From: Acidithiobacillus sp. HP-2
GTDB taxonomy: Bacteria > Pseudomonadota > Gammaproteobacteria > Acidithiobacillales > Acidithiobacillaceae
Reading direction: 5' to 3'
Assembly (NCBI RefSeq): GCF_015100155.1
Contig: NZ_JACKZA010000003.1
Location: 1 to 64,000, forward strand
Length of the DNA: 64,000 bases
Made by a program: the position numbers and the translations under genes. A model generated the notes under the pieces. The model was given only the letters and a program-made list of their open reading frames with translations. It did not search any database and had not been told where the DNA came from. Below are positions 55,354 to 62,872 of the stretch, in pieces (the stretch's first letter is position 1; each line of letters begins with the position of its first letter).

Positions 55354-56411
55354 AATTGCTGCTGCTGCGCCTCAGTTCTTTGGGGGATGTGCTGCATACT
55401 TTGCCGGCCATGTCCGATTTGGCGGTGCATTGTCCTGATGTGGAAGTGGACTGGTTGGTGGAGCCTGCTTTCGCTCCAGTTGTTGCCTGGCATCCGAAAG
55501 TCAAAAATGCCATTCCTTTTTCTCTGCGAGCCCTGAAAAAAACACCACTTACTTTTCCTGCCGCACTGCGCCAGCTCCGTAACATATTGCTTTCGAATCA
55601 ATATGATGCGGTGCTGGATAGTCAGGGGCTCTATAAAAGTGCATTGCTGGCCCGGTTGGCGGGTGCTCCGGTTTTGGGACTGGCGGCGGACAGTGCCAGA
55701 GAGCCTGGGGCTTCCCGCTTGTATCAACAGCGCTTTACGGTTCCCTGGTCCAGTCCTGCCATTGCGCGCAATCGCCAGCTGTTCTCGGCGGCGTTGCAAT
55801 ATCCGCTTCCGGATACGCCACCGGACTTTGCTTTGGCTTATCTTCGCAGGCAATGGCAGTATCAGTCGTTGGATGGTCCGCTGACGCAACGGCTCAGAAA
55901 GCCTTTTGTCATAGGTTTTCACGCGACTTCTGCCGCCTGGAAAACCAAGGAGTGGCCGGAACGGCACTGGAGGGCATTGGCTTCTCGTATGCGCGTAAAT
56001 GGCTTGAATTTGGTGCTACCCGCAGCGGACGAACGCGAGCGCCTGCGGGTGGCTAGCATTCAGTCGGGTGCTGATAATGCTATAGCGCTTCCGCGCCTGA
56101 ATCTGGAAACTCTGGCTATGGTCATGAGCAGAGCGCAGGCTTTTGTCGGGATGGATACCGGGCTGTCTTATCTGGGCAGTGCGCTGGGGTTGGCTGGAGT
56201 CACACTGTATGGACCTACATCTGTAGAACAGTTAGCCCATGGAGGTGAGCAACAGATCAATCTCCAAAGTCCACAATCCTGCGCCCCCTGCGGCAAAACC
56301 CGCTGTCCGTTGCCCGAGGCGCAAAATGGCCGGATACTTTGTCAGGAGGCGCTGGAGCCTGATCGGGTCTGGGCCGCTTTATCTTCCTTGCTGGAGTCGT
56401 CCGATTCATGA
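55350..56411 (+). CDS. waaC: LPS heptosyltransferase I
   Basis: WaaC adds the first L-glycero-D-manno-heptose to Kdo of the inner core. The start LLLLRLSSLGDVLHTLPAMS, VIGFHATSAAWKTKEWPERH and the end MSRAQAFVGMDTGLSYLGSA with TLYGPTSVEQLA are typical GT9/WaaC features. It is 353 residues. The GTG start overlaps the preceding stop (GTGA). Confidence 0.9.
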   Translation: MKLLLLRLSSLGDVLHTLPAMSDLAVHCPDVEVDWLVEPAFAPVVAWHPKVKNAIPFSLRALKKTPLTFPAALRQLRNILLSNQYDAVLDSQGLYKSALLARLAGAPVLGLAADSAREPGASRLYQQRFTVPWSSPAIARNRQLFSAALQYPLPDTPPDFALAYLRRQWQYQSLDGPLTQRLRKPFVIGFHATSAAWKTKEWPERHWRALASRMRVNGLNLVLPAADERERLRVASIQSGADNAIALPRLNLETLAMVMSRAQAFVGMDTGLSYLGSALGLAGVTLYGPTSVEQLAHGGEQQINLQSPQSCAPCGKTRCPLPEAQNGRILCQEALEPDRVWAALSSLLESSDS

Positions 56412-57088
56412 ATCCGTCCCTCAGGCTTTTGCCGGAAGAGCGTCGTCGCTATCGTCGCCATCAATTCTGGACAGATCACGGCATCTTTCGGGAATGGTTT
56501 TATGCCAATTTCCATGAAATGGCACCGGGTGTATTTCGTTCGGCACAACCTTCGCCCAGGCAGTTGCGGCTCTGGCATAAGCGCCATGCTCTCCGGGCGG
56601 TGCTGAACCTGCGGGCCCCAGCGCCTCGGGAACCCCATTACCGTCTGGAACAGGAAATTTGTGACGCTACCGGAATGCAGCATATTGTTCTGCATGGTTT
56701 CGGTTCCCGTGATTTACCCGAAAAAGAGCGTTTGCTGGCGGCCATGGATTTATTGACAGAGCTCCCTAAGCCTTTTTTGTTGCACTGCAAATCGGGGGCA
56801 GATCGGGCCGGGTTCTTGAGCGTTCTATACATGCACTTGGTCTTGCAGCAACCCATTGCGGAAGCTCAGAGACAATTGCGACTGTGGCCGTTCGGTCATA
56901 TCCGTCATGCCAATACCGGGATTCTTGACTGGTTTTTCGCGAGTTATCGACAGGCTCTTGGCAATGAACCGGGACTGACCCTGCGCCATTGGGTAGAGCG
57001 CGATTATGACCGTGATGCGCTATTGAAGAGTTTCCGCCCCTGGTATCGTCTAGATTGGCTGACCGATCGTCTGTTGCGTCGCGAATGA
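56408..57088 (+). CDS. Dual-specificity tyrosine-phosphatase-like protein in LPS operon
   Basis: The 226-residue protein carries the CX5R signature in LLHCKSGADRAGFLSVLYMH (near residues 126-132) and an upstream FRSAQPSPRQLRLWHKRHAL typical of DSP-type phosphatases. No signal peptide or membrane helix is clear. It overlaps waaC (ATGA) and waaA (ATGA), so it is translated with the Kdo and heptose transferases. A role in removing phosphate from LPS core, lipid A or a precursor is an inference. No kinase gene is visible next to it. Confidence 0.75.
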   Translation: MNPSLRLLPEERRRYRRHQFWTDHGIFREWFYANFHEMAPGVFRSAQPSPRQLRLWHKRHALRAVLNLRAPAPREPHYRLEQEICDATGMQHIVLHGFGSRDLPEKERLLAAMDLLTELPKPFLLHCKSGADRAGFLSVLYMHLVLQQPIAEAQRQLRLWPFGHIRHANTGILDWFFASYRQALGNEPGLTLRHWVERDYDRDALLKSFRPWYRLDWLTDRLLRRE

Positions 57089-58341
57089 TGAATCGCCGTA
57101 TTTACGCGGGATTACTCGGTCTTTTCAGTCCGTTCCTGTTGATTTTCACCTTGTGGCGCGGCTGGCGTCGCCCGCCTTACCGGGAAAGATGGCGGGAACG
57201 CTTTGGCTGGGGAGAAATGCATCAGGATCGTCCCCTATGGATTCATGCAGTCAGTGTCGGAGAAGCGATTGCCGCCATCCCGCTGGTGCATGCCCTGCAA
57301 AAGCGCTATCCCGACATTCCCATTCTGCTGACCAGCACAACCCCAACGGGTGCTGCCATCATCGCTCAGCGTCTGGGTTCGGCAGTGCGCCAACACTATA
57401 TGCCCTATGACACTTCGGTAGCTGTAAGACGGTTTTTGAAGCGTCAGCAGCCGCGCCTTTGTCTGATTATGGAAACGGAAATCTGGCCGAATTTATGCTA
57501 TTGGACGGCCCGGTTTTCCATCCCGCTATTATTGATCAATGCGCGCTTGTCGCCGCGTTCGCTGCGGGGATATGGACGTTTTTCGGGTTTGTTTCGCCCG
57601 GCGCTGGCCGCCATGACGGCGGTGGCGGCACAAAGTCCCGAGGATGCCGAGGCTTTCAAGAGTCTGGGCGCTTCCCGGGTCCTGGTCATCGAAAATATTA
57701 AGTACGATCTTCCTGAACCTGTGGATGCCCTGGAAAAGGGACGCATCTGGCGGCAACATCTGGCCACCCGGCAGGTTTGGGTGTTTGCCTCCACCCATGC
57801 CGGTGAGGAAAAAATAGCAATAGCGGTACTCGAACATTTACGCGTGCATTGGCCCCACCTTTTGCTGGTGCTGATTCCCCGGCATCCCAGCCGATGCGAT
57901 GCCATAGAGGCGGAGCTGCAAGCGGCCGGGATAGGGTTTGCGCTGCGCTCCCGGGATGTTGAAGTTGAAAGTAAAAACGTCTTGCTGGTCGATACCTTGG
58001 GAGAAGTGATGGATTTTTATGCAGCAGCGGATCTGGTGACGGTCGGCGGCAGCTTTGTCCCTGTGGGTGGACATAATCCGTTAGAGGCGGCGGTATTGTC
58101 CTGCCCCATTATTTTTGGTCCACACATGGAAAATTTTCGGAGTATTGCGCGGGATATGCTGACTGCTGAAGCTGCCGTTCAGGCTGATGATGCTGAAGCC
58201 CTGGAGGCCCGGTTGGAGCACTGGCTGCGCCAACCCGAGGATGCCCAGGAACAGGGAAAAAGAGCTTTGGCCCTTGTACAAAAGCAGCGCGGTTCTCTGG
58301 AAAAGGTCATGCAGCTTCTGGAAGAACTGGATTTGTCCTAG
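57085..58341 (+). CDS. waaA: Kdo transferase
   Basis: WaaA transfers Kdo from CMP-Kdo to lipid IVA. It starts with a membrane anchor (IYAGLLGLFSPFLLIFTLW). The catalytic Glu is residue 60 in WIHAVSVGEAIAAIPLVHAL, the same number as in E. coli WaaA. LCLIMETEIWPNLCYWTAR and GGSFVPVGGHNPLEAAVLSC are further motifs. The ATG at 57085 overlaps the phosphatase stop. Its TAG stop shares the CTAG at 58338-58341 with the convergent ovoB gene. It is 418 residues. Confidence 0.94.
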   Translation: MMNRRIYAGLLGLFSPFLLIFTLWRGWRRPPYRERWRERFGWGEMHQDRPLWIHAVSVGEAIAAIPLVHALQKRYPDIPILLTSTTPTGAAIIAQRLGSAVRQHYMPYDTSVAVRRFLKRQQPRLCLIMETEIWPNLCYWTARFSIPLLLINARLSPRSLRGYGRFSGLFRPALAAMTAVAAQSPEDAEAFKSLGASRVLVIENIKYDLPEPVDALEKGRIWRQHLATRQVWVFASTHAGEEKIAIAVLEHLRVHWPHLLLVLIPRHPSRCDAIEAELQAAGIGFALRSRDVEVESKNVLLVDTLGEVMDFYAAADLVTVGGSFVPVGGHNPLEAAVLSCPIIFGPHMENFRSIARDMLTAEAAVQADDAEALEARLEHWLRQPEDAQEQGKRALALVQKQRGSLEKVMQLLEELDLS

Positions 58342-59540
58342 AGCTGGCAGCGGACCGGAAGGCTTTGCGGCGACTTTGGCCCGCGCCACAGAGCGCTCCG
58401 CAAACGCAATAATCCTTCCTCCAGGACACTGCGGGGTGCTGCAAAATTCAGACGTACAAAACCCTCTCCGCCCGGCCCGAAACTGGGTCCAAGATTGAGC
58501 CCGAGTCCGGCCTTGAGCAGGCTTTTCTGAATGTGATCGTCGTCGCCATAAGCCCCCACATCGAGCCAGGCCAGATAACCGAATTCCGGAATGCGGTAAC
58601 CGACTTCCGCTAGTTCCCGGCGCAGGAATTCCTGAATGAATTGTGCATTGGCCAACAGGTATTCCCGCAACGCCGTCTGCCATTCTGCACCCTGCTGCCA
58701 GGCACTGGTCATGGCCGTCAGGGCGCAGGCATTGGTCTGATGAATCTGGCTGCGATACAGCTCATCCCGAAAAGTCTGGCGTAATTCGCTGTCCGGAATA
58801 ATGGCAATTCCGCCGCCAATGCCGGCAATGTTGAAACTCTTGCCCGCCGAACTCAGTAATACAGATCGGGCTGCAAGCTTTGCAAAAGGAGTGTGTTGCG
58901 CATAACTGAGGTCGGCGTGAATTTCATCGCTGACTACCACGCAGTCGGCCGCCTTACAAAGCCGGGCCAGACGCTGAAGTTCTTCTTCCGTCCAGACTCG
59001 TCCCACCGGGTTGTGCGGCGAACAGAACAACAGCAGGCGGGATCGGCTTAAGGCCTTTTCCAGGGCCTGCCAGTCGATACGGTAAGTAAGATCCGTTTCC
59101 CTTTGTAAGGGCACGAGGAGCAGCTCCCGATTATTTTTCCGCACGGCGTTCATAAAGGGAGGATAGATGGGCGGCATAACCATGACGGTGTCGCCTGGTT
59201 GAGTAAATGCCCGCACGGCTGCAAATAAGGCCGGTACCACTCCGCTGATGCTTCCTGTCGCGCCGGGTTCCGGGCGCCAGCCATGACGCGCAGCCATCCA
59301 TTCGTCAGCCGCACGTAACATGGCCGGCCCGTCACTGGGGTACCCAAAAATCGGGTGCTCCAGACGTTTTCGCAAGTCCTGGATGATAGGGTCGGGAACT
59401 GCAAAATCCATATCGGCAACCCACATGGGCAAAACATCGCCGCCGAAGCGATGCGCTGCTTCATCCCATTTTATGGAACCGGTGCCCATGCGCGGAATAA
59501 CGGCATCAAATGGCGAGACTGAATTTCCATGATTTTTCAT
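58338..59540 (-). CDS. ovoB: PLP-dependent C-S lyase (PatB/MalY fold), candidate OvoB
   Basis: This type I PLP enzyme of 400 residues has the MalY/PatB pattern: WVADMDFAVPDPIIQDLRKR, PPIYPPFMNAVRKNNREL, FCSPHNPVGRVWTEEELQRL and the PLP lysine in LLSSAGKSFNIAGIGGGIA. Homologues split cystathionine or act as aminotransferases. It overlaps the ovoA stop by four bases (ATGA). In ovothiol synthesis OvoB is a PLP sulfoxide lyase acting on the product of OvoA. The location makes that role likely; sequence alone would only say PatB/MalY-type. Confidence 0.75.
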   Translation of the reverse strand: MKNHGNSVSPFDAVIPRMGTGSIKWDEAAHRFGGDVLPMWVADMDFAVPDPIIQDLRKRLEHPIFGYPSDGPAMLRAADEWMAARHGWRPEPGATGSISGVVPALFAAVRAFTQPGDTVMVMPPIYPPFMNAVRKNNRELLLVPLQRETDLTYRIDWQALEKALSRSRLLLFCSPHNPVGRVWTEEELQRLARLCKAADCVVVSDEIHADLSYAQHTPFAKLAARSVLLSSAGKSFNIAGIGGGIAIIPDSELRQTFRDELYRSQIHQTNACALTAMTSAWQQGAEWQTALREYLLANAQFIQEFLRRELAEVGYRIPEFGYLAWLDVGAYGDDDHIQKSLLKAGLGLNLGPSFGPGGEGFVRLNFAAPRSVLEEGLLRLRSALWRGPKSPQSLPVRCQL

Positions 59541-61645
59541 AGGCGTTCCCAGAGGGTGGCTTGCGCGATACTGTGCTGATATTTGCGCGCGGTTTCGCGG
59601 ATGACAAAGGGAATATCCAGCGGGCTTTCTTCCCGAAGCCGGAAATAGGGCGACAGGATTTCCTTGAGTGCTTCCAGGGTGCTGAGATTTTCACCATCTT
59701 TTTTGTAGCCACCGAGCCACTCGCTGCGTGCGGTATATTCTTCCAGCCAGGTGTAAGGTGAGGTGATGAGCAGGATGCCGCCCGGTACAATGCGCTCACG
59801 CATATCCTCCAGAAATTTGCGGGGATGATGCAGGCGATCAATGAGATTGGCCGCGACCACCAGATCATAGTCCCGATACAATGGTTTGAGATTGCAGGCG
59901 TCGGCCTGAAAAAAATGGACATGATCAGCACTTTCCCGCAAACCCAGGGTTGCCAGGTCGATGCTTTGATAACTCCGCAAATCGCCTTCTTCGACCCGTG
60001 TGTAGGAAAAATGTCCGCGCTCACGAAGTTGTACACCGACACTGATAAAGCGCGCCGAGAAATCCAGTCCGGTCACATCCGGGCAGTGTTTTGCCAGTTC
60101 AAAGCTGCTCCGCCCCACCGCGCAGCCAATATCCAAGGCCCGGCGCAAAGGTTTACCCGCCATGGCTCGAAGCGCCAGTTCAGCGACCGCAGCCGCAAAG
60201 TTAGGGACTTCATAATAGCTGCGTCCATAGTGAAATTCCGCATACTGGGAGACCAGTGCGTCGCTTTCATAAATGGGTACTTCAGGAACGGTGTTGGTTG
60301 AGGTGACATAACGGAATCCGGCATGCTGAAAAAAATGCCGACGAAAGGCATAGCGTGCTTCCTGCTGCATTTCGTTACCAAGGCTGATAAATGATCCCCC
60401 TTTCATCAGATTATGCTGCTGATCAAAAGTCGGCACCGTAAAATCGTCGTACACCGGATGGACTTCAAAGCCCGGAAAAGGATAAATCGGTGTACTGGTC
60501 CACTCCCAGACGTTGCCTATCAAATCGTAAAAATCACCCTGAGGAAATGCGTCCACCGGACAGGGGGAGCAGCCGACACTCAAGCCAATATTGGCGGGGA
60601 CTGCATCTTCCCAGCCATCGCTGTCACTCAATGCACTGAGATTGCGCAGATGGCGCCATTCGTCCTCACTGGGAAGACGCAGGTTTTCACCGGGTTGGGT
60701 CGATTTCCAGCGACAAAAAGCGGCTGCCTCCAGGGCATTCACCTCAACTGGCCAGTTCCAGGGCATGGCTCGCTCTTCGGCAATCAGACGCAAGCGCCAT
60801 CCTTCAGCATCGGGCACCCAAAATGGCGGATGTTCAGCGCGACTGAAGCGCCGCCAGCCATCACCCTCTTCATCCCACCAGTCGGGATTGTGGTAACCAC
60901 CGTCTTCGACAAAGGCAAGAAACTCCTGGTTACTGACCAGAAATCTGGCGGCGGCAAAAGGGTGCAGTTCATGTTGATGGTTCCCATACTCGTTGTCCCA
61001 GCCATATTGGCAGTCATCTTTTGCCTTGCCCAGCGCAACGAGACCCCCGGGCACGGGCAGCAGAGCATTTTCCGGGGCCTTGCCAGCCTGATCCCAGGGT
61101 GCAAAGGCGGCTACCGGGCGGACCCGGGAAAGTGGCAACTGGCGCATCAGGACCGAGCTGGTTTCCAGATGGATGTTTTCGTGTTCGATGCCCATCAGGA
61201 TGACCCACCAGGGTGAATCCCAGGTAATGGGGAGGGTCAGGGGTAACTCCGAAATGAGCCTGTCCACCATATTCCGTACCTCCTGGCGATAAAGGCGGAC
61301 GGTTTCAGGGGTAGGCCAGTCATAATGGGTTTCGTCCAGATCATCCCAGGACATTTCATCAACGCCGACGGCAAATACGGATTCCAGATGCGGGTCGAGA
61401 CGGGCTTCAATCAGTCCCGCAAATTGCAATTTGTTCACATAAAAAGTAGCGGTATGCCCGAAGTAAAATATCAGGGGATGCCGCAGAGGAATGGCTTTTT
61501 CCACCCAGGCAGCAGAGTCCTGCAAGTGATCAAACAAGGATTCATACAAGGAGAAGGTTTCATGGAAAACCCTGCGAATTTCTTCCCGTTTTTGTTCAGC
61601 ATTCTCACCGTCCAGACGAAGTGGAGTAATGCGTGTACGCGCCAT
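59537..61645 (-). CDS. ovoA: 5-histidylcysteine sulfoxide synthase / methyltransferase OvoA
   Basis: OvoA joins cysteine to histidine C5 as a sulfoxide and later N-methylates 5-thiohistidine, giving ovothiol A. The 702-residue chain has a DinB-like N-terminal domain with the iron motif HxxxHxE (His155, His159, Glu161 in GIEHENIHLETSS). An FGE-sulfatase-like domain follows (about 200-450: LPSEDEWRHL, GNVWEWTSTPIYPFPGF, MKGGSF). Last comes a SAM methyltransferase (about 480-702: ALDIGCAVGRSSFELAKHCP). FYFGHTATFYVNKLQFAG and VGVDEMSWDDLDETHYDWPT are OvoA-type. The ATG at 61645 is chosen because AAAGGAGC precedes it by 5 bases; an ATG at 61666 has no site. Confidence 0.88.
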   Translation of the reverse strand: MARTRITPLRLDGENAEQKREEIRRVFHETFSLYESLFDHLQDSAAWVEKAIPLRHPLIFYFGHTATFYVNKLQFAGLIEARLDPHLESVFAVGVDEMSWDDLDETHYDWPTPETVRLYRQEVRNMVDRLISELPLTLPITWDSPWWVILMGIEHENIHLETSSVLMRQLPLSRVRPVAAFAPWDQAGKAPENALLPVPGGLVALGKAKDDCQYGWDNEYGNHQHELHPFAAARFLVSNQEFLAFVEDGGYHNPDWWDEEGDGWRRFSRAEHPPFWVPDAEGWRLRLIAEERAMPWNWPVEVNALEAAAFCRWKSTQPGENLRLPSEDEWRHLRNLSALSDSDGWEDAVPANIGLSVGCSPCPVDAFPQGDFYDLIGNVWEWTSTPIYPFPGFEVHPVYDDFTVPTFDQQHNLMKGGSFISLGNEMQQEARYAFRRHFFQHAGFRYVTSTNTVPEVPIYESDALVSQYAEFHYGRSYYEVPNFAAAVAELALRAMAGKPLRRALDIGCAVGRSSFELAKHCPDVTGLDFSARFISVGVQLRERGHFSYTRVEEGDLRSYQSIDLATLGLRESADHVHFFQADACNLKPLYRDYDLVVAANLIDRLHHPRKFLEDMRERIVPGGILLITSPYTWLEEYTARSEWLGGYKKDGENLSTLEALKEILSPYFRLREESPLDIPFVIRETARKYQHSIAQATLWERL

Positions 61646-61738
61646 GATTGCTCCTTTGTAAGTCATTTCTGTTTGTCATCCCTAGTCTAACACAAGATAC
61701 CGTCCGGTCGGATGCTTGGGAAGGGCCTGCAAGCAGGC

Positions 61739-62872
61739 TCAGGTGTCGCGCGCAGGGTCGAGCAATTTGCGCGCCAGCGGCGGCATGATCAGCAGCATCA
61801 TCAACAAGCGAATGAGGTGAGCACCGAGGACAAAAAGGACATTACCGTGAGCTGCCATGCTGACGGCAACCGCTGCATACAGGGCACCGGGTGCGGTCGC
61901 CAGATAACCATCCAGATCACTGACGCCGACCAGATGCGCCAGGAGAACACCGAGCAGGGCGCAGCACAGGTTCAGAACGAGAATAATGAGCAAAGCACGG
62001 GGAATCAGGCGTAAGTGCAGACGAAGGCGGCTTATGGACAATTGCAGCCCGGCCTGCCAGCCAATCAGCAAATAGGCAGCTTCCAGAAGCGGACCAGGAA
62101 GCGCCCGGGTTGGATGGACGTGAAACAAGGTCAGCAGGAGGGTGATCAGTAAAGGCCCCAACAAATAGGGCGCGGTGATGTGGATTTTTCGCGCCAACCA
62201 GATTCCAAAAGGGGCCCCCGGCAGCAGCAACAGGAGGCTTCCTGCCCAGGATGCGGGTAAATGCGCGTCCGCCAAAGTCGCCGTATTTGCGTTGTGATTG
62301 TGAAATACAAAGAGAACCACCAGAGGCAGACTGATCATGACCAGAATGACGCGCAGGTATTGCATGATCGCCACCAGCCCTACATCGGCCTCGAATTCCT
62401 GGGCAATGGCGGTAATCCCGGCTGCCCCTCCTGCAGTCATGGACAGCAGACCGGTACTGGCTTTGATCTGCGTCCAGCGGCTGAAGAGCAAACCAGAAGC
62501 CAGGCTCAAAATCAGGGTGCCAGCCGTTACCAGCAATATGGGTAGCAGATGGGCGGAAATGGCCTCCAGCGCAGCAGTCGTAAACATCAAACCAATAGCC
62601 ATGCCCAGTATGGCTTGTCCGGCTCGGGAAAAATGACGGGGATAAGCCAGGTTCCCGAGACTGTTGACGGCGATTCCAGTAACAACACCGGCAAACAGGG
62701 CTGCGGCGGGAATCTGCCAGAAGCGGAATAAAACGCTCAGCAGGACACTGCCCACAAGCAGTAATATCCAACGTCCCGTTATGCCGGAAACAGCGCCCGT
62801 AAGTTGTGCCAGAAACGTGTGCTCCCCGGGTTTGGTTTTCAAACGCCGCCCTTGAATCCCAATTGCCGCCAT
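61739..62872 (-). CDS. AbrB-type membrane protein (PF05145)
   Basis: A 377-residue integral membrane protein with about ten helices and an internal duplication typical of the family often labelled ammonia-monooxygenase-like or AbrB. Landmarks are SAGLMFTTA-type glycine-rich helices ([19 protein letters not shown]), [20 protein letters not shown] and [20 protein letters not shown]. The catalytic copper or iron site of real monooxygenases is not recognisable; a transport role is plausible. The start overlaps trmL by 34 bases. Downstream, 93 bases separate it from ovoA. Confidence 0.75.

Follow-up and report, generated by a model that had tools for sequence, protein, structure and literature searches.

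A window of 64,000 nucleotides (the whole stretch of DNA analysed) from Acidithiobacillus sp. HP-2 contains two adjacent minus-strand genes at 58338-61645, which an earlier note on this DNA had described as an ovothiol operon, ovoA-ovoB. The locus raises the question of whether these genes encode the synthesis of ovothiol A, and whether the arrangement is peculiar to this genome or common in the family Acidithiobacillaceae. The coordinates given for the pair were right and both reading frames are open. Judging from sequence and gene context, the pair is in all likelihood a translationally coupled ovothiol A operon, and it is near-universal across the family.

Layout of the locus

The ovoA reading frame comprises 702 open codons, with the ATG located 5 bases downstream of an AAAGGAG motif, and the lyase reading frame comprises 400 codons (59540-58338, minus strand). 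The features of the locus are as follows:

61651-61657, minus strand: AAAGGAG, likely ribosome-binding site of ovoA, as read from the sequence
59537-61645, minus strand: ovoA, predicted sulfoxide synthase and methyltransferase fusion, 702 aa (matches to TIGR04344, TIGR04345 and 8khq)
60305-61621, minus strand: sulfoxide synthase part of OvoA (TIGR04344, 687.3 bits in the genome search; phmmer against the Protein Data Bank)
59537-60271, minus strand: methyltransferase part of OvoA, residues 459-702 (TIGR04345; match to OvoM 9bxl)
59537-59540, minus strand: ATGA in which the ovoA stop and the lyase start overlap, sequence GAACGCCTATGAAAAA
58338-59540, minus strand: ovoB candidate, PatB-family PLP-dependent C-S lyase, 400 aa (matches to TIGR04350 and 6qp3)

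The junction of the two genes reads GAA CGC CTA TGA AAA on the minus strand (CTATGAAAA), so that the lyase ATG and the ovoA TGA share the ATGA in a 4-base overlap. A simple scan found no sigma-70-like promoter upstream of the operon.

On its other side, the lyase gene is convergent with a kdtA-like gene, and the two overlap tail-to-tail at the palindrome CTAG (58338-58341), which provides the TAG stop of the lyase on the minus strand and of the kdtA-like gene on the plus strand. A dual-specificity-phosphatase-like protein (56408-57088, plus strand; assigned by eye) is encoded between the waaC-like and kdtA-like genes and is kept throughout the family at 63-96% identity. Upstream of ovoA lies a gene for an AbrB/YeiH-like membrane protein (61739-62872, minus strand; named by eye). 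This gene comes and goes at the site: it is present in genomes G004, G010, G016 and G008 and missing in G001, G003 and the remaining family genomes inspected. Since it is missing even from the close relatives G001 and G003, it was rejected as a member of the operon.

The large protein and its product

Its sequence assigns the large protein to the OvoA family, as a predicted 5-histidylcysteine sulfoxide synthase fused to a methyltransferase. Both of NCBIfam's ovothiol-specific models are passed, namely TIGR04344 for the N-terminal sulfoxide synthase (685.6 bits, cut-off 400) and TIGR04345 for the 5-thiohistidine methyltransferase (318.8 bits, cut-off 170). E-values from 1e-206 to 1e-95 exclude chance. 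The three OvoA parts reported earlier were all found: the motif HENIHLE (HxxxHxE) at residues 155-161, an FGE-sulfatase domain at residues 194-447 (Pfam, 103 bits, cut-off 23.3) and the methyltransferase recognised by TIGR04345 at residues 459-701. The N-terminal part consists of DinB-like and FGE-sulfatase-like domains. Residues 6 to 702 align end to end with the solved bifunctional OvoA 8khq (E 1.7e-264). The iron histidines are residues 64, 155 and 159, the active-site tyrosine is Tyr399, and the methyltransferase motif is kept. All 108 aligned OvoA rows, near copies among them, share His64, His155, His159, Glu161 and Tyr399. In an alignment to EgtB 4x8b, Tyr399 corresponds to EgtB Tyr377 and to OvoA Tyr417, residues that have been compared previously (PMC10903977). 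The nearest named relatives are the OvoA proteins of Acidithiobacillus ferrivorans (80%) and A. sulfuriphilus (72%), records of the window's own species possibly having been left out.

The protein belongs to the same superfamily as EgtB, with HxxxHxE, DinB and FGE-sulfatase domains in common, and could on that ground be taken for an EgtB-type enzyme of a pair that makes ergothioneine. However, it fails the EgtB model TIGR03440 (172.5 bits, cut-off 360) and the SenA model (170.2 bits, cut-off 420); the model check proposed in the earlier note came out on the side of OvoA. In the phmmer search of the Protein Data Bank, the sulfoxide synthase part matched OvoA far above EgtB-IV, EgtB, SenA and OvsA. 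The large protein also carries an OvoA methyltransferase. Phylogeny, on which the note had beforehand staked its reading, places it with OvoA: the 26 OvoA rows stand apart from the EgtB-like rows at 100/100, and as these are just two in number, the curated models weigh more. Model searches of the window's genome revealed no EgtD, and no EgtB other than a weak match of OvoA itself. Given the model scores, the tree and the lack of EgtD, an EgtB or ergothioneine identity retains hardly any probability.

The existence of the relatives OvsA and OvsM, and of bacteria that acetylate 5-thiohistidine (PMC12631010), suggests another product, that is, the selenium analogue ovoselenol or a different 5-thiohistidine derivative in place of ovothiol A. 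This is very improbable. The large protein scores 66 bits against OvsA versus 599 bits against OvoA 8khq, and its methyltransferase part is nearer to OvoM 9bxl (255.7 bits, E 4.5e-75) than to the selenium enzyme OvsM 9bxh (230.0 bits, E 3.2e-67). The selenium analogue was set aside because of this lower similarity to OvsA and OvsM than to OvoA and OvoM, and no acetyltransferase was recognised by eye among the flanking genes.

The lyase and its association with ovoA

The small protein passes the PatB C-S lyase model TIGR04350 with 479.3 bits (cut-off 340), in agreement with its earlier description as a PatB/MalY-type PLP lyase that starts in the ovoA stop at the ATGA. It is the sole protein above this cut-off in the window's genome, which has one OvoA and one PatB lyase. 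The closest solved relative is PatB 6qp3 (E 8.5e-92). Lys234, the PLP lysine, is conserved, together with Asn177, Asp205 and Arg363. The naming of the lyase as OvoB stood in part. The PatB family, the overlap and the co-occurrence with OvoA speak for it, without a specific signature, as TIGR04350 is a subfamily model that does not name OvoB; the breadth of the PatB family in substrate keeps the lyase from being named OvoB from sequence alone.

OvoA was found above the cut-off in 27 of the 29 Acidithiobacillaceae genomes (own genome counted), and the lyase in the same 27. The two genomes that lack both are only 85% and 61% complete. The lyase gene follows ovoA immediately in 23 of the 27, and the order comF-like, trmL-like, (other genes), ovoA, ovoB, kdtA-like is observed in most of the family, the names other than ovoA and ovoB being given by eye. 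In the remaining four (G022, G023, G024 and G026), the gene after ovoA is the kdtA-like one and the lyase is encoded elsewhere, which is a point against the operon. Both an adjoining and a distant lyase are present in G019 and G025. Beyond the family, a PatB lyase adjoins ovoA at 48 of 80 public-genome loci (mostly Proteobacteria), and the same pair occurs in Nitrosomonas, Methylophaga, Rhodanobacter and others.

Several related arrangements were also seen. The OvoA genes of Azonexus, Dechloromonas, Halomonas and Marinobacter have no adjoining PatB lyase (L021, L033, L035, L046, L052 and others). One Acidithiobacillaceae genus has a further clade of PatB-family lyases that are not adjacent to ovoA (L138, L139, L140, L141, L142 and L143) and show about 50% identity to the lyase of the window; this clade supplies the sole lyase of some genomes, and two genomes have both types. 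The sister family, which belongs to the same taxonomic order, has EgtB-like proteins in place of OvoA (L155 in G030, L144 in G029), and its genome G029 has a PatB lyase and no OvoA.

Given a genuine OvoA, the lyase might still serve mainly methionine or general cysteine-conjugate metabolism, as a cystathionine or cysteine beta-lyase, while other PLP enzymes take part in sulfoxide cleavage. Beta-lyases of the PatB/MalY type are broad, PatB-family lyases of about 42% identity occur in relatives that have no OvoA (G029 and G039), and the four genomes with a separated lyase fit such a role. The ATGA overlap, the fact that lyase and OvoA co-occur perfectly across the family and the recurrence of this gene order in many other Proteobacteria argue against it, and we consider it unlikely. 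In the phylogeny, which had also been suggested as a check of the lyase, the window's protein groups with the other ovoA-following Acidithiobacillaceae lyases and not with a methionine operon.

In the best tree, the ovoA-adjoining lyases fall into two groups (Acidithiobacillaceae and other Proteobacteria), PatB and MalY being placed between the two, and this split looked strong. A single ovoA-linked clade against PatB and MalY was not rejected when all Acidithiobacillaceae lyases were kept (p-AU 0.162), nor when MalY was removed (p-AU 0.475); an earlier p-AU of 0.003 against one clade had been obtained with the non-adjacent Acidithiobacillaceae lyases left out. The claim of two independent recruitments was therefore dropped. 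In a broader proposal, ovothiol would be a second near-universal low-molecular-weight thiol of the Acidithiobacillaceae with a core function (e.g., carrying persulfide during sulfur oxidation, or handling iron and metals) instead of a simple antioxidant, and its lyase would have been drawn from the PatB family independently of other ovothiol makers; as a whole it appears quite improbable.

Proposed pathway and comparison with known systems

The two-enzyme pathway is established in other organisms (PMC12631010, PMC10903977). By family membership, the window's OvoA would couple cysteine oxidatively to C5 of histidine, with iron and O2, to give a sulfoxide. The PatB-family lyase, as OvoB, would cleave this sulfoxide to 5-thiohistidine, pyruvate and ammonia, and the C-terminal methyltransferase of OvoA would methylate the pi nitrogen with SAM. 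The families, the catalytic residues, the gene overlap, the co-occurrence and the lack of an ergothioneine route make ovothiol A synthesis in this organism very likely. The window's genome also contains gshA (TIGR02049, 662 bits) and gshB (TIGR01380, 394.9 bits) side by side; with EgtD and EgtB absent, ovothiol would be a second thiol beside glutathione. A protective role against metals or reactive oxygen presupposes this predicted product and would be a further step from it; under physiological conditions, little convincing evidence supports a role of this kind (PMC12631010).

The pathway itself is known, and automatic annotation pipelines would name the ovoA gene; what stands out is the near-family-wide retention in Acidithiobacillaceae. 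The published accounts consulted on thiol redox balance in these biomining bacteria name the glutathione and thioredoxin systems, not ovothiol (PMC2621215, PMC6450195), and the two systems are listed in the A. ferrooxidans genome paper (PMC2621215). In the open-licence literature, we found no joint mention of Acidithiobacillus and either ovothiol, OvoA or the full enzyme name; an earlier mention elsewhere is possible. With a conserved ovothiol operon, bacteria living with acid, iron and reactive oxygen would possess a thiol that has been overlooked. What ovothiol does is described as an open question (PMC12631010), and the family would offer a free-living, family-wide setting to test its function.

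Compared with characterised OvoA (TIGR04344/TIGR04345, 8khq), the window's protein is the same in length, domain order, iron ligands, tyrosine and methyltransferase, with no notable difference; the Acidithiobacillaceae proteins form their own branch inside OvoA. EgtB, EgtB-IV and SenA share with it the superfamily, the HxxxHxE motif and the FGE-sulfatase domain but lack the OvoA-type methyltransferase, and the protein stays under the curated EgtB and SenA cut-offs. The lyase has the fold family, PLP lysine, binding residues and full length of PatB-family C-S lyases (TIGR04350; PatB 6qp3, E. coli MalY) and, unlike these comparators, its gene overlaps ovoA. Between the Acidithiobacillaceae lyases and those encoded behind ovoA in most other genomes, identity is only about 36-44%.
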